A stretch of 64,000 nucleotides of DNA, from positions 2,418,001 through 2,482,000 of the forward strand of contig CP099840.1 of the NCBI GenBank assembly GCA_030062745.1, written 5' to 3'. A model generated the notes under the pieces. It ran no database searches, was not told where the DNA came from, and saw nothing but the letters and a program-made list of their open reading frames with translations. This stretch comes from Capitulum mitella. Lineage: Eukaryota; Arthropoda; Thecostraca; Pollicipedomorpha; Pollicipedidae. Below are positions 416 through 62,255 of the stretch, in pieces (the stretch's first letter is position 1; the number at the start of each line of letters is the position of its first letter). Made by a program: the position numbers and the translations under genes.

Positions 416-587
416 GCACTTCAGCGGCGCAGTTTAGAGCGTTTCCAGGAGGGCGCAAGGCATCTGAAGACTTTGACTGCCCTGAAGACTTCGGATACTA
501 TCCCCATCCTACAGACTGCTCTAAATACTACGTTTGTGTGTTCGGTGGAGCGCTAGAGGAAGTTTGCTCCAATGGACTAGTGTATAG
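416..587 (+). CDS. Cda5: CDA5 exon: chitin-binding type-2 (peritrophin-A) domain, first part
   Basis: The exon opens after a pyrimidine-rich acceptor (tcttttccag) and ends at ag|gtgagt. It reads [20 protein letters not shown] and then enters a six-cysteine peritrophin-A fold with aromatic residues typical of chitin contact ([17 protein letters not shown]). The last cysteines ([13 protein letters not shown]) come from the next exon at 1538-1774. The exon starts two bases into a codon, so at least one coding exon with the start codon and signal peptide lies before the window; nothing in 1-415 supplies it. Confidence 0.9.
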
Positions 588-3500
588 GTGAGTTCCGTCG
601 GAGAGGTTTGGTTGCATGAACTCTTGTCTCCGACTGCTGATATCTCATAACGAGTTCGTGATAATGCAAAGACTCGCAAGTGCGCGAGACCTCGACCTCA
701 TAACGAGATGGCTGCTTGAATGGATCGCAGAATTGGTGTCACTTCAATTAGGCAACTGGATGTGAATGTCAGCGTCATCGTGAAGCATGCTTAAGATTTA
801 CGAGCTCCCATAACAGCCTTACTCGCGCCTTGCCAGGGGTAACTTCCTGCATTGCGACCTAATTTCAGCACCGACCTTCGGGTCTGTGATTTGAAACGTG
901 CGATAGTCTGCCCACCTTCCTCACTGTATCGCTGTTGGTGCTCTGCACTTCAGCTTGAAAATCTTTCGGTTCTGACGTATTGATCTGTGATCCTGTTTCA
1001 GCCCGGTTCCGGTTCAAATTGATCATATTTAACTCTGGTCAGTTTACTGCTAACGGATTTTTCAGTTCTAGGGCGCCATTTCGCGATCTTTCATCAGTTC
1101 TCATCGGACGTCACGAGACTACGCTTCAGTTGTGATCCACCGTTAACATGGTCCTGCTTTGGGTTCGACCACAATAATGTGATCCGGTTTAAGTCCTGGT
1201 CTGCTGATATATTGGCTTGTTTCAGTTTCGGCCTGTTGATCCACACTTCCACTCCAGTCCTGACCTGGTAACCGCTATTTCAGCTCTGACCTGTCGATCT
1301 TTTTTCAATTCAATCATTCTCTTGTTTCAATACTGACTTCTGTTTGCGTTTCAGTCCTGACCTGGGCCGCTGTTTCAGCTCTGACCTGTTCTCCTTTCAG
1401 TTTCAGTTCGTTTCAGTCCTGACGTGTTGACCTGCGCTCGCGTCTCAGTCTTGACTTGGGACTGTTGTTTCAGCTCTGACCAGTTGACCTGTGCTCCCGT
1501 TTCAGCTCTGACCTGCTGGCCTATGCCCGCGTTTCAGCTCCGACCTGTTGACCTGCGACTGGCCGCGCAATGTGGATGCCTGCGGCCGGAGCGGCGACGC
1601 CCCCCGGGAGTCGGCCTCCGGCGCGGCCGCCGGCAAGACCACCTCTCGGGCCGGTGGTGCCCGCGGCGGCGCCCGCGCCCCCGCCCCCGCCGCCGCCCGA
1701 GGCGCCTCCTCGGTCGTCCGGGCGCCTGCGGTGGCCAGGGCGCGCCAGGCCCCCGCCCCCAGCCCGTCGGCCAGGTGAGCAGAGACGGACGCCCCCGCGG
1801 TCGGCCGCAACGCCGGGTCGAAGTTTTTGGAATGGGCGGAATAATACGGGATCGTAAGTTTTTATCAGACATCCCTTGCCCTGCGTTCGAAAGCTAGCTA
1901 ATATTGCACTGTGTTTCCTTTCTTGCCTCGCATACCCCTGTGTTTCACGAGGCATGAAACGTTGTCCGCCTCATCGTTTTACACGTATAATGTCAACTGC
2001 TGTTCCCCTTTTTTGACAGTTATGCATGTCTGCATGTATAGACAGTTGCGACACAGAGCATTGTCGGACGGCTGTTATGGTGTCACGTGGAATGCGAAGT
2101 CCTTGCAGACCACCGTCATCGTTCAGTCTGTCTTGGATTCTTTTTGCTCATGTCGGCAACTCATTTTTAAGTCGATTGGTTTCTGTTTAATCGTCTGATT
2201 CATCAGAAGAAGTGTGAGAAGCTTCAAACTGGGCAAATCTAAACAGATCAAGTTTTTCAAGCAGTTTTCTTCAAAATGTCTGGAGCCCCATGTCTCGCAT
2301 TTATTTCACGTCAATGATACAACCTTCCCTGTGGTTATTCCAAAGTTATGTACTCATGCGGGTGGATTGGGGCATCGTACTAGCTACCGGGATAATGCGT
2401 CATAACATGCAACGCTGCCGTCAGAATCGAACAATGGAACTATTTCGACATTTAACAGCCTGGGCAATAGTACGCCTCCAGCCAAACCAAGTCCATCGAC
2501 TCTGATCGCTCATGGAGCCCGGCAAAAACTGGCCTTTGTGTCGCACAGTTTTTTGTCGCTAGCGACTGAATGGCTTAATTATCTCTCTTTTAAATCCATT
2601 TAGGGAAACAAAGTAACCGAACATTAGCACCATAACAAATGCTAGTTTTTGTGTTGGTAAACTACCAACAAACGAACTTCATTGTTATCGCACTGTGTGA
2701 CGTTTGATGGGATGGCGGGGGAGTTAGGGCAAGGTCTAGAAAACTATCCGTAGCCTGGCTACTTAATCCGATTTGCACCAGTTTTTGCTGAGATCTTGTC
2801 TCATTATCTAGGGGCCAACCCGACTACGAAATGTCGACAAACACGAGCCAGTCAAGTGGGCAAGGTCGTTGGAACAGTTTTGAAACGCGTCTCATTGTCA
2901 TCATCACGACGTCTGACTGATCACGCTCAGAGATAGGTTTTCCACACAATAGACACGCATATCCGATGCGGAGATCAATCCTCGAGATACGGCCCTATCT
3001 GTTCGGCCACCCTCATCTGGCGAGTTTGAGGCGTGAACGAAGAGCTCGGGCAGAATACCCCAGCGTCGTTGGCACCTGATTACCATCTCTGCCCTCGCCC
3101 GTCGGGCGATGACGCCGATACCGCGACGCGAACACCGCCGCTCGTTTACAGCCAGCTGCGGGCCACGTCTGCGTGGCGGCGGTCCGCCCATGCCGCGGCC
3201 GAACCGCTCATCGGTGCCATCCATCCCCCGCCCCGAGCCGAGCTCTGATCGGACGGACTCGCCGCCAGGCCGGCGCCGGTCCGCAACAACCTGGACGAGC
3301 AGTTCGGCCGGTTCGCGGCCAGCTCGCCGCGCCAGGTCGCAGTCCAGCTCGCCGCGGCAGTTCGCGTCGAGCTCGACGACGGCGCGCGGCGCGCCCGACG
3401 CGCTCGCCGAGCAGGCGCGTCTGCTGGACGGCGTCGACCGCCGCCCCGTCGACCTGGACGCCCGCTTCGACGGCGACACCAACGTAAGGCCCGGTCCGGA

Positions 3501-12500: not shown

Positions 12501-15500
12501 GGGCAGGGTCCGACTCACCGCGTCTCCAGACAGAGGGGGAATGTGCCCGACTCATGGCACCCGGAACTGGGATGTCCGGCGGGGGCCGGTAGCGGTCTCA
12601 GCTCTCAGCAGCTGACGTCCTACCGAGCACCGGTCAACTCGTCCAGCTGAGCTAGGGTGCGTCATGAAGATCATTCACTGAAACTTTTGTTCTGAGAAGA
12701 ATAGCCTGAAACACTGGAACTAACTCAGCCATTTGGTATTTAAGGTAAATCGATGACGTTCTGATCTGTCTAAACTCAACGGAAGATGACATTTTTAAAA
12801 TCGGCTCTCAGGGTGTACGCTCATTCTCCGTAACCCATGCTTTCTTCCGTTTCCAACGACACCAGTTCCCGGAAAAAGTCCAAGAACGGCGTGAGAGGAG
12901 GTCACTCCAGCGCGGCCAAGGTCAACATCTGGGCGCACCCGCCGAGGAGGTAAGGCAAAAGCACGTGGACACTGTCTGGGTGTGTTCTAATGTCAATAGT
13001 AATGCCAATAGGGCACGTACGCGGCGGCTCCAACAACGTTGGAAAAAAGAGATGATTCTGAGATGCCCCATTAAAAGAAACAGTCTACAAAATGTTTCTC
13101 TCCGAGGTTTCGTCCCCACCAACTTTTGAAGTACTTCTATGCACGTAGTGCCTTCTGAGAACGTTGATACTGCCTGAAGGCGTATTTTAAACGACTGCCT
13201 AATGCCAAACCTTTGCGGGGTTGGGATCATGGCGCACATTTCCGTGGTTTCAGGTATTGTGCCCTTTATCACCGTGACTTGCCGTGACCTAGTCCGAATG
13301 TCATCCGTCTGTTTGGCAGGCCCTGACCTGTCATTCTTTAAGTTTTTGACCTGGCTGGAGCAGACGAAAATTGTCACATCGAGAACCCCACCTTAGCATG
13401 GTTCCAGCAATCTTTCTCTGACCTGACCTGGACCATTTCTCCTACGGCCTCGCCCTAGAGTATCCTCAACATCACGATCGGATCTGACCGGACCTGGGTC
13501 GTGTCTCCAACACGCCGGCACCGATGTATCCTCGGCATCACGACTTTACCTGATCTGACCTGACCTGAGCCATCCCTCCTGCGGGTTCGCCCCTGTGTAT
13601 CCTCAGCATCACGACCTGGTCTGGTCTGACCTGACCTGGGTTCGTCTCTCCAACAGGCCGGACCCGGTGTACCCTCAGCCGTATCCCGACGAGCCCGCAG
13701 AGCGCTGCGATGCCCGCTGCAAGCTGCCTGACTGCAACTGCGGGGGCACCGCCACCCCCGGTACGTGCTGGTCCGATGGAGACCGATGATCGCTACCGCC
13801 CGCAAAGACGAGTCTGTCTTAGGCTGGGGCGTACTGCTCCATTGTGAGGCGCGTCGTAACTGGTGTAATCACCACTTTTAGTGGTTTGATTGCTAGTTTT
13901 CAACTAATCTAGCTCGTCATGTCTGATATATCGCCATATATCATATATCATGTTTCACAGCAGCACTGCGATTGGCCTTCTTAAAAACCTAAAACCAATG
14001 TTAAGAGTACATTCAAAAGTACTGGGCCACGTGGATACACGATCACGTCTTTCCATCGGTCCCAGTTGGATTTGTTCTTAGACAAGTTTGCTTGTTGGTA
14101 GTAACCTTGATTTCAGAGAAAAGAAGATATACCTCCACCGCTAACGTTTTCGCGATTGCTGCTAACTGGCTACATGAGGTTTAGGCCCATGGAAAACGAA
14201 ATCAGATCCTGGCGACGTGCAATGCGTGTAATCGTAGGCAGCACTCCATTTCATGCCCTTTCAAGTGCGGCAGCGCCAGCGTGCAGCTGCCGTTTGTGCG
14301 TACTGTGACGTTTCACTGACGTCAGCCGCCCGCTCAGGCAACTTCCGGTCGGCTGACGTGCCGCAGCTGGTCCTGCTGACGTTTGACGACGCTGTCAACG
14401 ACCTTAACAAGGGCCTGTACAAAGACTTGTTTGAGGAGGGGCGTACAAACCCCAACGGTTGTCCGATCGCGGCCACGTACTACGTGTCGCACGAGTGGAC
14501 CAACTACGCGCACGTGCAGAACCTCTACGCAGACGGGCACGAGATCGCCTCGCATTCCGTGTCGTAAGTAGCCGGATCGTTCGGGTCCGGTCGGGTCCGT
14601 TCGGGTCCGGTCGGGTCCGACCGGGTCCGTTCGTGCCGGGTCAGGCCCGTCCATGCCGGCTGCATGTCCCGTATCTGCCTGACGAAGAGCAGTTTTGTCC
14701 GTCTGTCCGTCCGTCCGTTCGTCCGTCCGTCCGTCCGTCTGTCCGTCTGTGTCGGGACTGACACCAGGACTGTCAGGACTGCGTCCAGGCAGGTCGCTCC
14801 CGGTAGGGTCGCAAGGCCCACTGCATGGCCAGGTGGTTCAGGAGAGGGCTCCGTGGGAAAAGTTCGTTCGTCTCCTAGCGAAATCACACTGACCAGTATT
14901 GGCTCTAGATCGCATGTCTAAATCACCGAAACGAGCATTCACGTTTGCTGATGAGTCATTTTGCACATTTAGCATGGTTGCATAAACTAACCGAATTTGC
15001 ATCGCGTAAGGATCAGATAACAGAGGAGGTTCCGGTGGAAACTAATGATTTAAAAAACTACAGAGTCCTTCAAACAGGATAGTGCCACGCAGACATGGAA
15101 CGCTTTTTCTCCATGGGCTTTGGATTTGGGCATGACAACAGTGTCCGGCAAGGTAAGCTCACGGTCACAGGAATACGAACTGGAATCTCGGCAAGAGACA
15201 GCTGTCCAGAAGCACTCGTGAGATCGAGATTATGGCGGGCTGAACACGTGAAGCATGGTGAGAATGAGTCCCATTTTCCTCCTCGGCGTCGGTTGTTTTG
15301 GAAGCTGACAGGTTTTGCTTCGGCCTTGGGCCGCCTCAATTCAATTTGAAAAATATGCCAGTCAGCAGAGCAGTGCAATGAGAGGTGTACCGCGTTGGGA
15401 AGCGAATAAAGGGCGGTATGCAAGGGAAACTTTTGTCCTGCAGCTGGCAGCGGAACTAGCGTCCCTTCGTCTTCGATGTAGATATCGGCAGAGGGTGACG

Positions 15501-18500
15501 AGGTCAAGGTCTGCTTTGGTCCTCGGAAATCAGCAGTCGTATTGAGCAGATGCATGCCCTTATCAATTTCTACAAAGTTATAAGGCATCTTCAGATACGG
15601 TGCTGCCAGCTCTCAGCAAATGGGCAAAATGTGGTCCTCCAGAAAGAACAAGGAATGCTCCGGAAGATGAACTAATCGCATTAACATTTCGAGGAGAAAA
15701 TAATTCGCGTTTCAAACGTTGATCCGATCTCGAGCCAGCGCTCCTCCGTCGCCTGGTGTCCTGCGCTCTCGTCCAGTCTTTCACGCTGTCCGTTCGACGG
15801 TGCCACGCCCGGTTTCGATACCGGCTGCCGTCTGCCATACATCGCTGGTTGACCACCTCCTCCTGACGACTTCCGACGATTCTCACCGATCAGCAATCGC
15901 CGTCAGATGTCCGGACAGTCTGCGCGCTTGACCTCGACCCAACGCACCGACCTCGGCGAGCCTAGCTGACCCGGCCGACCCCGGCTGACCTCAGCTGACC
16001 TCGCCTGACCTCGTCTGACCTCGGCTGACCTCGTCCAGGTGGTCTGGAGACACGCAACGTGCCTCAGCTGGTCCTGCTCACCTTTGATGACTCGGTCAAC
16101 GACCTGAACCGCGGTCTGTACAAGGACATGTTCGAGAACGGTCGCGTCAACCCCAACGGGTGCCCGATCGCCGCCACGTTCTACGTGTCGCACGAGTGGA
16201 CCGACTACAAACAGGTGCAGAACCTGTACGCCGACGGCCACGAGATCGCGTCCCACTCCATCAGGTGAGCGGCCGGCAGGTGGTAGCACCGTCGACGCGC
16301 AGGTGGCGCAGCAGGTCGGAGCGTGTTTGGACCGTCTTTAGGAGCCGGCCAAAGGGGTTGGCAGAACGGAATCGGCGGGTATGAGGCCATTGGTTCCTTT
16401 TCCAATTAGCATTGGTTTCTAAGCGGAACTAAGGATGTTGGGTCATGCATTTTGTCTGTATGTTAGAGCATTAGGTTTCTGTTGCATGCCCGCATTTCAT
16501 GTTTTCTGTGTTATTGTCCGTCGAAACCCGAATGATGGCTCTGCAGGCCTTGAAACTAATGCATGAGCATCATGTCTGTGTTATTCTGATTAAGTTGCAG
16601 GCGAGTAAACTCGAGCGTACAGCGCCTTTGCACGGATCGAATCGGGCGCATAGCCTGTTCAGCACAGCCTGCCATGTTTCTGTCAAATTGTCTGCAACAC
16701 CGACTGCGTTCAATGCTTCACATCAGCTACAGCGCGTCTGCCGTCGAATTGTCGCCCGGCCCGATGTAACCGCAGCGCTGGCTCCAGCTGACGCCTCCTG
16801 TCGCCGTCCGCAGCCACAGCTTCGGCGAGCAGTTCTCCACGTCCAAGTGGGAGCGCGAGATCGCCGGCCAGCGGGAGATTCTGGCCGCCTACGGAGGAGT
16901 CCGACTGGACGACATCCGCGGCATGCGCGCCCCCTTCCTCTCGGTGAGCCGGGCAGCCTGGTGGCGGGCGGTTCCGCCCCCTTAAAACGGCTCCTGTGGT
17001 GGACGGCTCTGCTCCTGAAAAAGGCTCTTATCGCGGGCGGTTCTGCTTCTGGAAACGGCTGGGTTCCGGCTTTAGGTGAAAGATGCTGGTTCACAGGCTC
17101 CATTATTACGCACCACTCTTAAATATTTCTAAGGGTGTGATTGCACTGCATAGGCAGCCCTTAGTGAAGATGCCAGAGGTTGAAGCTTGACAAGATGTCA
17201 CGATTGTGGTGCGTCTTATACTCAGAGTGATCCACCCCACAATAAATGTGAAACTGTTTCTTTCTCCTCGATTAATCTGCTCAAAAGACGCATCATCGTA
17301 AAGAACAAGGGTACCATCAATGAATCTGCCCAACTGTGCTGTGGACAATGAACATCGTAAAACGTCACACCAGTCCCAATAACCACGGCACGATTCCAGA
17401 TCGGAGGTAACCGCATGTTCAAGATGCTGTACAACAACAACTTCACGTACGACTCGTCGATGCCCGTGTACGACAACAACCCTCCCAGCTGGCCGTACAC
17501 TCTGGACTACAAGATCCACCACGAGTGCATGATCCCGCCCTGCCCCAACAAGGCCTACCCAGGTCAGTGACGGTGCCGCGAACGTGTCATGTGATGGACC
17601 GCACACTGGGGTTAAGGTGGCGCTCAGCTGCGCCTAACGATTATCTCGGTAACTGCGGGGTCGGTGCGTGCGTTAAAATCTCGTACACCGGGCCGATGAG
17701 CAGATCCATGTATGCCGCCCATTAAGCAGAACTGTCTACGAAACGGATATAATGCAAAAGATGGCAGCCACGTTTTAAAGGCTGGCAGGACTTTCAATAT
17801 TACCGAAAATGGTAAAAACTTCGCTCGTTTTTGTCCATTGAATTGACCCATATCACTTCTAGACGACGCCCCGAACAAGACAAGAAATCTGTCTTTCTCG
17901 AACTCCAGCAAACGTATCGCCTCAGAAGTGCAACCCAGACGATATTCCCATCGTCTGCCGTACCATGTGCGAATGAGAGGTATCCACTGACTGACCGACT
18001 GACACATCGCTGCGCGGCAGGCGTGTGGGAGGTGCCGATGGTGATGCTGCAAGACCTGAGCGGAGGACGCTGCTCAATGGCGGACGCGTGCTCGACACCC
18101 GCCACCGCCGAGGAGGTCTACAAGATGTTCATCAAGAACTTCGAGCGCCACTACACCTCCAACAGGCGAGTCAAACGCAGCCTTTTCAAGATAGTATGAT
18201 GCAGCTTGTCAAAAAAAAACTCGTCCAAAAAGAAAACAGACGCGAAGACAGACGGTAGATTGGAGAAACTCTTCCGTGCTCACGCTGCTCATCTGGAGAA
18301 GCATCGATCGATTCTCGATGGTCCACCTTACAAATTTTGATAAATGGTCTGTTCTGACGATGCCACTGACGTCATTCCAGGGCTGTGTTCCCGCTGTACT
18401 TCCACGCCGCCTGGTTCACCACCGAACACCACAAGGAGGGCTTCATGGCCTTCCTCGACACCATCAGCAAGATGGACGACGTGTGGCTGGTCACCAACTG

Positions 18501-18978
18501 GCAGGCCATCCAGTGGGTCCGCGACCCGCAGCCGCTGAGCACCGTCAAGAACTTCCAGCCCTTCGGCTGCAGCTATCCCGGTGAGGACCTGCAGATCCTA
18601 TCTCGACGTACAGCTGCAATACCGACGTCGATTAATGGTCGTTGGCTTTGACGCCTGTTAGTAAAGATGTCTTTTTCATACTGACGAAACTGTAGTGGTA
18701 TTCGAGAGCTTTTCAAAGTCCAGGCGGCGGGCATAGGAGCCACCGAGAGGATGGAAAATAAGTGTTCCGCCGCAGTTTGGCCAACTGCAGACGCCGAGCT
18801 GCCAGTGTCCGCCTCCACCTCTGACGGGGCGCCCACGTTCCAGGAACGTCCCAGCCGCTGCACCAAGGCGCGCAAGTGCAACCTGTGGCACAAGTCCGGC
18901 GTGCGGTACATGACCACGTGCCAGCCCTGCCCGGACAAGTACCCGTGGACGGGCAAAACCGGCGTCAGCCCGCGCTGA
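416..18978 (+). CDS. Cda5: Chitin deacetylase 5-like protein, long-linker type (5' incomplete)
   Basis: Secreted or extracellular-matrix protein expected to remove N-acetyl groups from chitin (carbohydrate esterase family 4). Exons joined by GT-AG sites and matching phase: 416-587, 1538-1774, 3303-3483 (5' edge unsure), 4727-4818, 6536-7742, 8299-8740, 9152-9198, 9761-9934, 11493-11621, 12106-12474, 12866-12949, 13657-13760, then 14338-14563 or 16039-16264, then 16814-16943, 17400-17562, 18021-18165, 18381-18580, 18791-18978 (TGA). About 1,430 residues lie in the window; the signal-peptide exon must lie upstream. Order: type-2 chitin-binding domain ([20 protein letters not shown], ending [12 protein letters not shown]), a disordered S/T/P/R/Y-rich linker of over 900 residues, then the deacetylase domain. 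Visible CE4 motifs are TFDD, HSxSH (split over an exon junction), RAPF, YDSSM and FHAAW. The long linker argues for CDA5 rather than CDA4. A one-base frame break lies near 7.5 kb. The family call is firm; linker exon edges are less so. Confidence 0.9.
1000..1537 (+). repeat. Tandem decayed copies of a 3' splice region (CDA5 intron)
   Basis: TTTCAGCTCTGACCTG-type units occur about ten times, becoming closer to the true acceptor (GTTTCAGCTCCGACCTGTTG at 1531) toward the exon. Several copies keep both the CAG and the first exon bases. Confidence 0.75.
4425..4575 (+). repeat. 40-bp tandem repeat in CDA5 intron
   Basis: Four units of about 40 bases, each starting GCCCTG(A/G)CCTGGG or a one- or two-base variant (4,428; 4,468; 4,507; 4,546), lie upstream of the 4727 exon. 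Confidence 0.75.
6536..7742 (+). CDS. Cda5: CDA5 large linker exon, low complexity
   Basis: The acceptor is tgtattttag at 6535 and the donor is ggcag|gtaaca. The start phase fits the exon ending at 4818. The encoded linker opens with tandem TTDxDVT-like repeats (DNA about 6588-6672), then a basic/proline-rich stretch and a tyrosine-rich part with [16 protein letters not shown]-type repeats, as seen in extracellular matrix linkers. From 6536 to about 7,505 one frame is open and protein-like; from about 7,575 to 7,742 a second frame is ([20 protein letters not shown]). The exon length fits its two flanking phases only if one base is surplus. The break sits in or just after a CCG run, so an assembly indel is the simplest reading. 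Confidence 0.75.
8299..8740 (+). CDS. Cda5: CDA5 linker exon, acidic and tyrosine-rich end
   Basis: The acceptor is ccgctgcag and the donor is ttcacg|gtgaga. The single base before the first full codon fits the upstream phase. It reads [20 protein letters not shown], then a Ser/Pro stretch, then [20 protein letters not shown], a Tyr/Asp-rich segment. No folded domain is visible. It feeds in frame into a 47-nt exon at 9152-9198 and a Lys/Arg/Thr-rich exon at 9761-9934. Confidence 0.8.
12106..12474 (+). CDS. Cda5: CDA5 linker exon with GSTR tandem repeats
   Basis: The exon has acceptor cgctccag and donor accgg|gtgagg, in phase with 11493-11621 and 12866-12949. The protein carries about fourteen GST(R/L/F)-type tripeptide-tetrapeptide repeats encoded by a roughly 12-base repeat between 12,160 and 12,350. 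The opposite strand is also open over this repeat and would read (R)VEP repeats, but it has no splice or domain support. The repeated Ser/Thr suggests an O-glycosylated or disordered spacer (inference). Confidence 0.75.
13440..13656 (+). repeat. 70-bp tandem repeat including copies of an exon start (CDA5 intron)
   Basis: Three units share (G/C)TCGCCC...GTATCCTCAGCATCACGACC and end in TCTGACCTGACCTG; the third runs into the true acceptor CTCCAACAG. The exon itself begins GCCGGACCCGGTGTACCCTC, clearly the same phrase as GCCGGCACCGATGTATCCTC at about 13,514. Confidence 0.8.
14338..14563 (+). CDS. Cda5: CDA5 alternative catalytic exon a (mutually exclusive)
   Basis: A 226-nt exon that opens the deacetylase domain: [20 protein letters not shown] at the start, then [17 protein letters not shown] and HEIASHSVS at the end. 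It holds the catalytic and metal-binding TFDD aspartates and the first histidine of the second motif. It enters at phase 1 and leaves at phase 2 (gtgtc|gtaagt), exactly like exon b. Because 226 is not a multiple of three, including both exons or neither shifts the frame, so only one can be used. A CDA5 splice pair of this kind is known from beetles (Tribolium CDA5a/5b). Confidence 0.92.
14575..14750 (+). repeat. GGGTCCGGTC array and (CCGT)n microsatellite after exon a
   Basis: Starting about ten bases after the exon a donor: about six units of GTTCGGGTCCGGTCGGGTCC type (14,578-14,645), then a CCGT/CTGT tetranucleotide run (about 14,697-14,750). Confidence 0.85.
15940..16036 (+). repeat. CTGACCTCG tandem array before exon b
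   Basis: About eight 9-10-base units (CTGACCTCAG, CTGACCTCGC, CTGACCTCGT and similar) run into the acceptor of exon b. CTGAC matches the metazoan branch-point consensus, so the array may offer many branch points. Confidence 0.85.
16039..16264 (+). CDS. Cda5: CDA5 alternative catalytic exon b (mutually exclusive)
   Basis: A 226-nt paralogue of the exon at 14338, with the same phases (acceptor ctcgtccag, donor atcag|gtgagc). It starts [20 protein letters not shown], then [17 protein letters not shown], and ends HEIASHSI. Catalytic residues are kept. Differences cluster in the first eight residues and at surface-like sites ([26 protein letters not shown]), which suggests altered substrate edge or partner contacts rather than a dead copy (inference). 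Confidence 0.92.
18166..18380 (+). other. CDA5 intron with a GC-AG splice pair
   Basis: The exon at 18021-18165 must end at AAC AG to join GCTGTGTTCCCG in the next exon and give [13 protein letters not shown]. The intron therefore starts with GCGAGT instead of GT and ends cattccag. GC-AG introns are a known minor class that needs an otherwise strong donor; CAG|GCGAGT fits that. Confidence 0.8.
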
Positions 18979-34133: not shown

Positions 34134-37100
34134 ATGATGCGGAGTCGGATGGCGACGTCACGCGGTCCGCAGCGCGTGCTGGCCGCCGTGCTGGCGCTGG
34201 TCCTGGTGGTGTGCGGCCTCAGTTACTGGCGGCTGCAGGCCGTCAACACGGACCTGACGGCCGAGCTGCACCGGCTGGAGGGCCTGCTGCAGACGGCGTG
34301 AGTGGGGCGCTCGCCCGAGTCACGCTCGCGGTCTGGCTCGGCCCTCGTGCAGGCGAAGTGGTCGGGCGACCCGGAGCGGCTAGCCTGCCGCGAAATTAAT
34401 GGGGAGAAGCTTAAGCATGCGACGGCTGTGGCATGTCGGAGTAAAGCTAGGCTGTAGAACTTGTGTAGTGCAAATCGTGACATTCGTCTTTCTGTTTGTG
34501 ATACTTGTGGTCGCCGTCATCTCGGATGACGTGAGATGTTTAAATCATTTATAATACTAGCTAATGCAATGATGCGGATATAGCAATGTGTTTTTTTCTG
34601 TCTGAGCATGTCTCAGAATTTCATCTCTACTGATGTACTGTGTTCCCTTTGCAGTGAAGAGAAATCATTGAAGGGTGATCTGGAAAGGCGAGAAATCAGT
34701 GACGACCTAAAGAAAGCCAATGCCAAGGCTCATCAGATAGCAATTGAAAAGGAAGAAGATGGTATTAGGTGCAAACACATGAAAGAAAATCTAGATGAAT
34801 TGGAGGAGAACAGGGCTGCCCTTCAAAAACAGCTGGATGATGAAAAGGACGAGCAGGTCGGCCGTTGTTAAGGATGTGTTATCGAGCATGGTTCGATATC
34901 GAGACATATTTTCTCTGCTCCTGCACGTTCACTGGCGTCTGTCCAACATTAACATCAGGTCGCTGGTCCGATCGCAACATTTAGCTGTTGTTCATGGATG
35001 ATATGTCTCTTTGCTGAATGCATCACCAAATTGTTGCATATGAACTTCTCTAGGTTCTTGTGGCTAAAGCGCGGAAGTTGCTGGAGGTGTCCTTCAAAAT
35101 TTTCTCGAGCTCAAATGAATTTTAAACATCACATACCAGTCTTAAAGAAATGTGAAATGCAGTTTGTTAGTCTTGACTCTTCAGCACACACTATGCTTTA
35201 TATAAGCAAAGGAAATGCTTTTACAGCTGCTGTTAAGTAATGTATAAATGTTGCTGGAGTGATGCTTTGTTTCGATCCCCATATGTATCCTGTGTAGCTG
35301 GCTCCGGCCACTGACCTCGTTCTGGCCGTCCTCCAGGACCGCCAGCTGAGCGACATGTCCGCAAAGATCGACAACGTCGAGACCCACGCGGCGGAGCTGG
35401 AACAGCAACGGGACAAGGAGCGAGCGGAGCTGGCGAAGGCGCAGACCGAGCTGCAGAAAAACCGGCAGGAGCTGGCCAAGGCGCAGCGCGAGCTGCAGAC
35501 GGCGCGGCAGGAGCTGGCCAAGGCTGGGGGCGACTCGACCTGCCCGGCCAGGCTGGCGCAGGTGCGTGAGGGCCGGTCTGCCCGGTCTGCGCCCTGGTCG
35601 TCTTCTCGCTCCTCCGGTGTCGGGTTGGGCCGGGCGTCTGCATCGGCTCAATTGTCATGGTCCGAACTGGCCCGACTTCGTGGCCGTGTCGTGTTCCGAA
35701 AGGCCGTTCAGGCGCTCATACCTCGTTGTGCGTGAAGGAACAGGTGTAGATTCAAATCTTATTCGGTGATGTTTTGGGCGCACGTGCGTGCATGCACGAA
35801 ATGTGCTAGCTTATAACGTTGTCACCTTCCTTCCAAAGGAACATTGGGCAGTTAGATCGATAGCACAACATATTGCCATCAGCATGAAATGCATTGGTCT
35901 TTGCCTCTCTGCTGTTGAACGTAAAAAGCGAGTCAAACACTTGGGGACCTGGAGCTGCTGTAATATTTATAAAACGTTTCTTTATCGACTCCGTTTGGCG
36001 CGCCATGATTTTGCCCTTTGTATGTGTGTTTGTGGTTTTTTCAAGTGGTAAAAGCGTTTTTGCGTTTCACGAAATGTATCCGTTGGAACCGCTTAGAATG
36101 CTTTTTTCATGGTTCGAAATATCGTGTTATAACAGTACAAAAATAGCGAGTCAGGTCCAGCAAGGCTAACGCGAACTTTCAAGGTCATGTATGCGTTTGG
36201 CCTTGTGCAATAGAAGGTACCGCCGTCTGTGGCCGTCTGCCGGTCGCCGTCAGTGGCCGTCTGCCGGCTGATTCTGCCGTGGCTCACAGTCATTAGGTAC
36301 CGCCGTCTGCGGCCGGCTGCCGGTCGTCGTCAGTGGCTGTCTGCCGGCTGATTCTGCCGCGGCTCATGGTCGTATGCCGGTCCGCAGGTGCAGTCTGATC
36401 TGGAGCGGTGTCGAGCCGCGACCGACCCGTCAGCGCCGCCTGGAGCGTCAGGTGAGCTGCCTGCCCCCTCCCCCCGTCTTGTCCTTTCACCAGACCAGAA
36501 CGCCCTGAGGTGGTGGGGCTCAGAGCTTTCCCAGGAGCCGAAGTTTGGTAAATTTCTATTGGCGGGGTCATAGGAACGTGCCCCTTTTGTGTATGGTTTA
36601 GGGTTCGTCGTCGTGTAAAGCATGATTGAATTTGTGGATTTTCTGCTGCCACATGAATCGCTCATGTAGGAACGGTTGTTTATGGACGATCCCAGTCCGA
36701 TCTTATATTCTCCTCCCTTCCATTTTTTTTTTTTTTTGTACTTGTGAAATGCGTATTCCGCTTCCGTCGATGTTTAATTTTCTTCGGCGCGCCGTCATAT
36801 GGCAGCAGCAGTTGAGCGCTGACCTGTGCGCCATCTTTCCGCCGGCGCCAGGGGCCGTCTCCAGCCGGAAACCGTGGCCGGGCCTGGTGATGCCCCGCGG
36901 CAGGCTGGATCAGCATCTGTTCGAGAGCGCCGGCCTGGACGGCTTCCAGCAGGCGCAGGGCCGGGCCGGTGTGGCGCCGCCGCAGCAGCAGCAGCAGCGA
37001 GTACTTCCGGCCCCGCCGGCCGGCCCGAAGAGCACCAGCTCCAGCCAGAAGCCGCCCAGTGGCGGGCAGTTGGCCAAACCGCAGTCCAACGAGGTGCGGC

Positions 37101-40395: not shown

Positions 40396-41793
40396 CACCC
40401 TTGTGCATATTAATTGACTCAGTACAGTTTTTCCATGTTTTTCGAAGATACTGTTTTGTTATGCAATCTCACAATGATTTCCACTATCATAGTCATGTTT
40501 TTTAACAATGTTTGTTCGTAGGCTTTTGTAAGAGCTTTTTCAAAGTGAGTTTGGAACCAGTGTGTACTGCGCATGCGCGAACTTTGGTTGACTGATGCAA
40601 TACACGTCATCGCGTCAGCGGCATTGATTCACTGAGCATTCATCGCACACACAACAGCTCTAACAAAATAGACATCACGCCTAGGAAGCGGACGAAGATT
40701 TTTACTTTATTCGAACATTCTGAGAAGTCACAGAGAGAGATCGCTAAGATAGTTGGTGTCAGTCAGCGCTCAGTCTCACGGATTATAAAACAAGGAGTTA
40801 CTACTGGATCTCTGTCACCAAAACGAAAAGGGAATTGTGGAAAAAAACGAAAAACGACGCCGAGAGATGATCTGTATTTGACACGTCAAAGCAGAACTTG
40901 CACCACGAAAGACTAGTGGTGACCTGCAAAAAGATCTAGCCGGATCTGGAGTTAGTGTGAGTTCGAGCACTGTTCGAAGGAGGCTTTTAGAGACCGGTCG
41001 GAGGGCTCACAGACCACTAAAAAAACAACGTCTTACAGAGAAAATGAAGGCTAAACGTTTGTTATGGGCAAAAAAGTACCGGCACTGGACAACGGAAGAC
41101 TGGCGGAAGGTCATGTTTTCGGACGAAAGCCATTTTTTCGTTCAGGGACAGAGGAGTCAACATGTCCGACGCTCTCCTGGTGAGAAAGTCCGTGAAGGTC
41201 ACATCAACCAAACCGTGAAACGCCCCGAAAAGCAAATGTTTTGGGGTTGTTTCAGTTTCCGTGGCGTGGGATCACTTCATCCTGTCGAAGGAATGATGAA
41301 ATCTGCCCAATACATCGACGTGATACGGAGAAAGGCGATTCCAGACATGCAGAAGGCGTTTCCAGATGGTTCAGGGGTCTTTCAACAGGACCTGGCTTCT
41401 TGCCATACGTCGAAGATTGTGACCAATTTTTTTAAAACAAACAAGATAAATGTTTTGGACTGGCCTGGAAACTCGCCGGATTTAAATCCTGTGCAAAATT
41501 TATGGTCTATCATAAAGACTCGTCCCCGCAAAAAGGATTGTACAACCAAAACCAAGCTGATACAAGCCATAATTCAGGTCTGGTACCACGACGAACAGAT
41601 AAAAGAAAACTGCGAAAACTTGATAGATTCCATGCCCAAGCGGGTTTCACAAGTGATAGACAATAAAGGTGGTCATACTAAGTATTAAAATGTGAAAAAA
41701 TAAGAAGAAATTACTTGAATAAACGATTATTTTGACAAAAACCATAATTTTTAATGTTTTGAGTGTTTGAGTCAATTAATATGCACAAGGGTG
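40396..41793 (+). mobile_element. Tc1/mariner DNA transposon, Tc1-like
   Basis: A 1.4-kb element with near-terminal perfect inverted repeats of about 26 bp (CACCCTTGTGCATATTAATT at the left; the complement at the right end, 41768-41793). The right flank is TA; the left flank is TT where TA is expected, so one base of the target duplication has probably changed. It encodes one Tc1-type transposase, now broken. Confidence 0.93.
40660..41688 (+). pseudogene. Tc1-like transposase, inactivated
   Basis: The N-terminal half is readable as a helix-turn-helix domain (KSQREIAKIVGVSQRSVSRI). A frame change near 40,895 then leads into GDLQKDLAGSGVSVSSSTVR and an open frame from 40957 to 41688. The catalytic core shows MFSDESHFF (first Asp) and QQDLASCHTS (second Asp; usual QQDNAPCH). 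At the third position the usual NPIENLW reads NPVQNLW, so the DD34E glutamate is Gln. No in-frame start codon is found at the 5' end. The frameshift and the lost catalytic residue make it doubly dead, yet most of the protein is well kept, so it is moderately young. Confidence 0.9.
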
Positions 41794-61971: not shown

Positions 61972-62255
61972 CGAGCAGACTCAGGGCAGAGAAGACTCAG
62001 GGCAGAGCAGTCTCAGGGCAAAACAGACTCGGGGTAGAAACGACTTAGAACAGAGCAGACTCGGCACAGCGCAGACAGGGTAGATCAGACTCAAAGCAGA
62101 GCAGACTCAAGGCAGAGCAGACTCAAGAAAGAGCTGACTCAAGACGGAGCAGACTCAGGGCAAAGCAGATTCAGGGCAGACTTAGGGTAGAGCAGATTCA
62201 GAACAGAGCAAACTCAGTGCAAAGCAAACTCAGGGCAAAGCAAGTTCAAGAAGCA
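61972..62255 (+). repeat. Minisatellite, AGACTCAGGGCAGAGC-type unit
   Basis: About fifteen degenerate tandem units of 14-20 bases centred on GCAGACTCAGGGCAGA; copy-to-copy changes increase toward the right end. Confidence 0.85.

Follow-up and report, generated by a model that had tools for sequence, protein, structure and literature searches.

Chitin deacetylases (CDAs) modify the chitin of the arthropod cuticle and gut lining. Dixit et al. are said to have described, in 2008, an alternative exon in CDA5 of the beetle Tribolium. Two forms of this enzyme, TcCDA5a and TcCDA5b, are named in the legend to a published tree (PMC11595049), multiple isoforms of group IV CDAs are given for Drosophila and Diaphorina (PMC9632012), and Cda5 appears among the genes with putative isoform switches during wing cuticle formation in the fly (PMC4883753). 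Here we analyze a gene of the crustacean Capitulum mitella, lying in a 64-kb window (the whole stretch that was analyzed: contig CP099840.1, positions 2,418,001 to 2,482,000), in which the 3′ part of a + strand gene encodes a chitin deacetylase of family CE4. We consider it likely that this is a group-IV-like CDA gene in which the exon encoding the start of the catalytic domain has been doubled, and that its RNA is spliced with one copy or the other, not both.

Of the 10 insect species tabulated in one of these papers, 4 (fly, beetle, honey bee, and psyllid) are shown with isoforms of group IV (PMC9632012), and an old switch common to all insects is thus not shown by that source. In Bombyx, splice forms are predicted for CDA2 and CDA3, and none is named for CDA5 in the part of the source at hand (PMC6480692), which either speaks against an exon pair common to all insects or means that the pair was missed there. 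Some crustaceans are reported to make many CDA variants through alternative splicing (PMC8002005). In the excerpts of open-licence literature that we surveyed, no CDA5 is described as having mutually exclusive exons, and none of them tells which exon is swapped between the insect CDA5 isoforms.

The exon pair and its reading frame

We placed the coding exons of the deacetylase gene from the reading frame and the splice borders. The two alternative exons, a (14338..14563; acceptor CTCAG/GC, donor GTC/GTAAGT) and b (16039..16264; acceptor TCCAG/GT, donor CAG/GTGAGC), both on the + strand, are each 226 nucleotides (nt) long, with entry phase 1, exit phase 2, and GT-AG borders. They cover the same segment of the CE4 domain, from an entry stretch through TFDD to the first metal-binding histidine, and are identical at 172 of 226 bases and at 58 of 74 whole-codon residues. 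The isoform products differ at 16 residues, and the remainder of the modelled catalytic part is common to both. Exon a encodes TFDDA through HSV and exon b TFDDS through HSI; the exon that follows the pair (16814..16943, +; acceptor CGCAG/CCACAG) gives the third base of a split serine codon (TCC via a, as TC/C; AGC via b, as AG/C) and then the second metal-binding histidine, producing TFDDA...HSVSH in one product and TFDDS...HSISH in the other. The initial annotation had described a paralogous pair of equal length and phase, with an HSxSH motif rebuilt by a histidine from the next exon; its coordinates, lengths, and phases proved exact, and both versions of the motif can be read.

Both spliced products carry TFDD (motif 1), HSxxH (motif 2), RAPxL (motif 3, as RAPFL in the exon at 16814..16943), and YFH (motif 5). 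At motif 4, SMADA of this gene aligns with AMVDS of the insect enzyme BmCDA1, a motif described as less conserved (PMC6463723). In BmCDA1, the catalytic base and one zinc ligand come from motif 1 and the two remaining ligands from motif 2 (PMC6463723), and these residues are retained in isoforms a and b. The Pfam domain Polysacc_deac_1 matches isoform a at 37.6 bits and isoform b at 40.9 bits (cut-off 23.1). Against the two solved insect CDAs, BmCDA1 and BmCDA8, the isoforms score almost equally, with Protein Data Bank matches of 257.1 bits (5zns) and 233.2 bits (5z34) for isoform a and of 253.7 and 235.2 bits, respectively, for isoform b.

Each exon is 3n+1 nt long, and therefore any outcome except inclusion of a single one shifts the frame. 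With a alone or b alone, the frame is open from 13658 to the stop at 18976-18978, giving 379 residues in each case. With both exons in, the first stop falls at 16085, with five junctions downstream, and with both skipped it falls at 17530, with three downstream, which bears out the frame break that had been claimed for double inclusion and double skipping. Given these early stops, the enzyme would be made by single inclusion only. We propose that the spliceosome picks a or b, never both, and that misspliced RNA, with both exons or neither, would be degraded, its stop lying several junctions before the end. The choice would then alter the neighborhood of the active site while leaving the catalytic residues as they are, and the resulting isoforms may differ in substrate, partner, tissue, or stage.

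The same stops also fit the needs of a different scheme, in which a and b are not exclusive and frequent double-inclusion or skipped RNA acts as an off switch, lowering the enzyme dose via decay. Nor does the sequence present a physical bar to splicing from a to b, as the intron between them is 1475 nt long and has ordinary GT-AG sites. However, similar stops arise in most frameshifted products, and the support for the off switch is indirect. We regard this scheme as unlikely and prefer single inclusion of a or b.

The window holds two copies of the exon, not three, since a tblastn search of it with exon a returned exon b at E 3e-41 and, as the next match, one at E 0.35 that is not exon-like; no better match to either exon was found beyond a and b in the 64 kb. 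Seven further peptides encoded by the gene, used as queries to look for second copies, found only themselves and short matches (E 0.05 or worse). In a comparison of the translated window with itself, which yields many short or low-complexity pairs and unreliable E-values, none of the 40 matches listed, apart from a and b, is both longer than 30 residues and near 78 percent identity.

Age of the duplication and constraint on both copies

By the NG86 method, the two exons are separated by 27 synonymous changes in 51 sites (synonymous divergence, dS, 0.92) and 24 non-synonymous changes in 171 sites (dN 0.155). We compared their codons with independent draws from the gene's own codon usage, a test that allows for codon bias. 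At the 57 same-residue positions for which more than one codon is possible, the codons are identical in 38, against an expectation of 36.4 when a and b are included in the usage table or 37.7 when only the five other exons are; the fraction of draws with at least as many identical codons is 0.36 and 0.53, respectively. The agreement is that of independent draws, and thus synonymous divergence is saturated. To judge from the codons, the a/b duplication cannot be recent, and no date follows from them.

The introns tell a similar story. Except for ~12 nt past the donors, into which the ungapped match between the exons runs, the flanking introns of the two exons align in a single stretch of 32 nt at 72 percent identity, inside a tandem array (E 0.2 to 0.6). 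This divergence, together with the codon agreement and with a split serine codon that differs at both alternative bases, stand against the view that the pair is a recent, lineage-specific duplication of little functional meaning. In favor of that view, our tree places a next to b, and identical codons run to a maximum of 12, a length that is borderline (reached in 382 of 5000 codon-column shuffles). We consider a recent duplication highly improbable, and an old one is assumed below. As regards gene conversion, the 12-codon run is compatible, as a borderline case, with a short conversion tract. The longest exact run between a and b, 22 nt, is not unusual, as a run of this length appeared in 1254 of 5000 shuffles, and recent gene conversion over the whole exon is unsupported.

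The tree comprises 16 rows and 76 columns: exons a and b, BmCDA1, BmCDA8, and 12 bacterial sequences, with no other CDA group. Exons a and b are sisters with support of 93/94, just below the tool's 95/80 mark, and together they join BmCDA1 and BmCDA8 with support of 96/98. By this tree, the duplication would postdate the split from BmCDA1 and BmCDA8. Because 8 of the 13 inner branches are open and other CDA groups are unsampled, no finer reading is safe. The bacterial relatives came from an alignment search of genome contigs and are 29-38 percent identical in their best-matching segment. All 12 (L011-L022) derive from metagenome assemblies, six of them from the PVC group by title, and 11 match across most of the domain, with L021 matching across 184 residues. 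A single-protein search of the same contigs found no relative, and neither did protein and alignment searches of viral contigs or a search of phage records. A DNA-pattern search of the viral contigs returned 10 loci, four of which have only short matches (E 0.49 to 0.96).

The ratio dN/dS between exons a and b is 0.17 (NG86). We simulated a neutral copy that drifts for half of the divergence or less (branch dS 0.46 or 0.30), in 8 settings of 2000 replicates each; the simulation takes its data from one genome, gives both branches the same time, and uses simple base frequencies. The median number of residue changes in drifting copies ranged from 35 to 47, compared with the 16 differences observed in all, and in none of the 8 settings did any of the 2000 replicates have 16 or fewer. 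The simulation rejects a freely drifting copy, and both exons appear to be under purifying selection. The outgroups agree in treating the exons alike. Of the 224 cells formed by 14 outgroup rows and the 16 positions that differ, 41 agree with a and 46 with b, and a count of ancestral states with BmCDA1 and BmCDA8 stands at 4 to 4; thus, neither exon stands out as original or decayed.

These results bear on the possibility that the gene regularly uses just one of the exons and that the other is a retained, rarely spliced, non-functional tandem duplicate. Exon a could be the weaker of the two because its donor matches the consensus at 6 of 9 bases, compared with 7 of 9 for donor b, and because a second AG lies 12 nt upstream of the one at its acceptor. 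Further, 13 to 47 percent of the simulated neutral copies were free of stops, so that an intact frame alone is weak evidence and is compatible with a dead duplicate. Such a duplicate should not, however, show so few residue changes or lie about as near to the outgroups as its partner does, and both donors are within the range of the five other donors of the gene (5 to 8 of 9). A non-functional copy is quite improbable on balance, and we return to two maintained exons. The initial annotation had held that the duplication is old and maintained, and saturated codons, diverged introns, the dN/dS ratio, and the simulation all agree with it.

The a-b intron and the rest of the gene

The introns measure 577 nt before a, 1475 nt between a and b, and 549 nt after b, and the donors are unlike the U12 donor consensus. 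With introns of this length and ordinary GT-AG sites, crowding or an incompatibility of U2 and U12 sites is unlikely to impose the choice between the exons.

A tentative candidate lies in two 10-nt tandem arrays (+ strand) at the ends of the a-b intron. The first (TCGGGTCCGG; 14578..14633) lies a short way past the exon a donor. The second (GACCTCGGCT; 15947..16033) ends 5 nt upstream of exon b and contains several CTGAC words resembling the branch-site consensus. The two are partly complementary: their pairing reaches -96.3 kcal/mol, whereas none of 300 paired dinucleotide shuffles went below -93.2, and when the locus was cut into 100-nt chunks, the strongest of the 1653 chunk pairs (-94.3) fell at the same two sites. 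Windows of similar GC content pair as strongly or more in 14 of 507 cases for the exon a array and in 0 of 473 for the exon b array. On the other side, 100-nt pairs taken at random from the window have a 1 percent level of -90.5 and an extreme of -106.5, and the pairing was tested only after the arrays had been noticed. Moreover, the sequence that follows exon a resembles its own reverse complement (63 percent across 92 nt) and may therefore fold on itself. We take RNA pairing between 14578-14633 and 15947-16033 as a weak lead. A wider proposal, that a single switch predates the crustacean/insect split, some 500 million years ago, and has been kept since as two active-site versions of CDA5, with an array stem helping to forbid splicing from a to b, seems to us unlikely.

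The remaining coding exons of the catalytic part, all on the + strand, are the exon preceding the pair (13657..13760; donor CCG/GTACGT, with one codon base left over), three further catalytic-domain exons (17400..17562; 18021..18165, with a GC donor, CAG/GCGAGT, at its end; and 18381..18580, which contains YFH), and the last coding exon (18806..18978), which ends at the stop and whose acceptor was placed from the frame. The intron that leads to the exon at 18381 would be of GC-AG type, with its GC donor at 18166-18167. Upstream of the exon at 13657..13760, ~72-nt repeat units at 13416-13656 resemble its acceptor and first bases, and look as if they were a duplicated, decayed 3′ splice-site region.

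The group IV label concerns the whole gene rather than the exon pair. A CBM14 (peritrophin-A) chitin-binding exon, with its coding part at 427..588 on the + strand (Pfam CBM_14 E 1.7e-10; E 6.6e-10 for the open reading frame 379-588), probably forms the upstream part of the deacetylase gene, as suggested by order and strand. A long linker between the chitin-binding and catalytic domains is typical of CDA5, and here long Pro/Ser/Thr-rich reading frames lie in the ~13 kb between the CBM14 exon and the catalytic exons. For comparison, the length listed for BmCDA5 is 2415 residues (PMC6480692). No LDLa domain was matched in eight upstream or downstream coding-like reading frames or in the 322-residue catalytic peptides. 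By this architecture and by its sequence features, the gene appears to be a group-IV-like (CDA5-like) chitin deacetylase, and the original proposal of a CDA5-like gene is supported to that extent.

Several points count against our interpretation of a group-IV-like gene with exclusive exons. First, the frame arithmetic would follow from the duplication of any exon of 226 nt and does not imply exclusive splicing; it constrains the translated product, not splicing itself, and the strict exclusivity put forward in the initial annotation, like the layout in common with beetle CDA5, stands as a proposal. Second, that both exons are used is a reading of genomic sequence, and the share of neutral copies that stay free of stops, given above, weakens the argument from the open frames. 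Third, the group label depends on architecture and sequence features; the CBM14 exon, 13 kb upstream, is joined to the gene by order only, and the absence of LDLa applies to the selected reading frames. We continue to favor exclusive use of a or b.

Elsewhere in the window, an open reading frame at 40882-41688 (+) has a Tc3-type helix-turn-helix (PF01498, E 2e-14) and a DDE transposase domain (PF13358, E 2e-12) and resembles a Tc1/mariner-like element. Tandem arrays lie at 61973-62242 (unit of ~16 nt, 17 copies) and 36215-36366 (unit of 80 nt, 1.9 copies). Rfam, at the gathering score, and ARAGORN gave nothing across the window.

Comparison with known isoform systems

If a single gene does maintain a choice between two versions of its active site, what the isoforms are for would become a testable question. 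They differ by 16 residues in one exon, with the rest of the modelled catalytic part in common, and a direct comparison of the two enzymes would therefore be clean. In such work it may be relevant that BmCDA1 is reported to need accessory proteins, with moulting fluid added as a test (PMC6463723). The saturated codon divergence suggests, moreover, that the a/b choice is old and not a local accident.

Several systems described in insects are comparable. BmCDA1 (5zns/5znt) and BmCDA8 (5z34) share the CE4 catalytic domain with TFDD and HSxxH, but they belong to other CDA groups, and isoform b has domain identities of 43 percent with BmCDA1 and 41 percent with BmCDA8. The chitin synthase gene kkv of Drosophila is likewise a cuticle enzyme gene with a mutually exclusive exon pair, whose wrong exon choice is reported in a study of Muscleblind targets (PMC3315501), although the enzyme is unrelated. 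CDA2a and CDA2b, made with exon 3a or 3b, are two CDA isoforms that arise from one alternative exon in several insects (PMC9632012; PMC13302401), and the TcCDA2 forms have different effects upon knock-down (PMC6480692). These enzymes, however, are of group I and carry an LDLa domain, and the divergent stretch in Bemisia CDA2 is ~100 bp (PMC13302401), compared with 226 nt including motif 1 in the C. mitella gene. The insect CDA5 enzymes would share with our gene group IV membership, a CBM14 domain next to the CE4 domain, and more than one isoform; in Diaphorina, by contrast, one of the five isoforms reportedly differs at the 5′ end and is without the chitin-binding region. The exon pair of C. 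mitella is real, old, and maintained, and it fits the kind of isoform that has already been named in insects.

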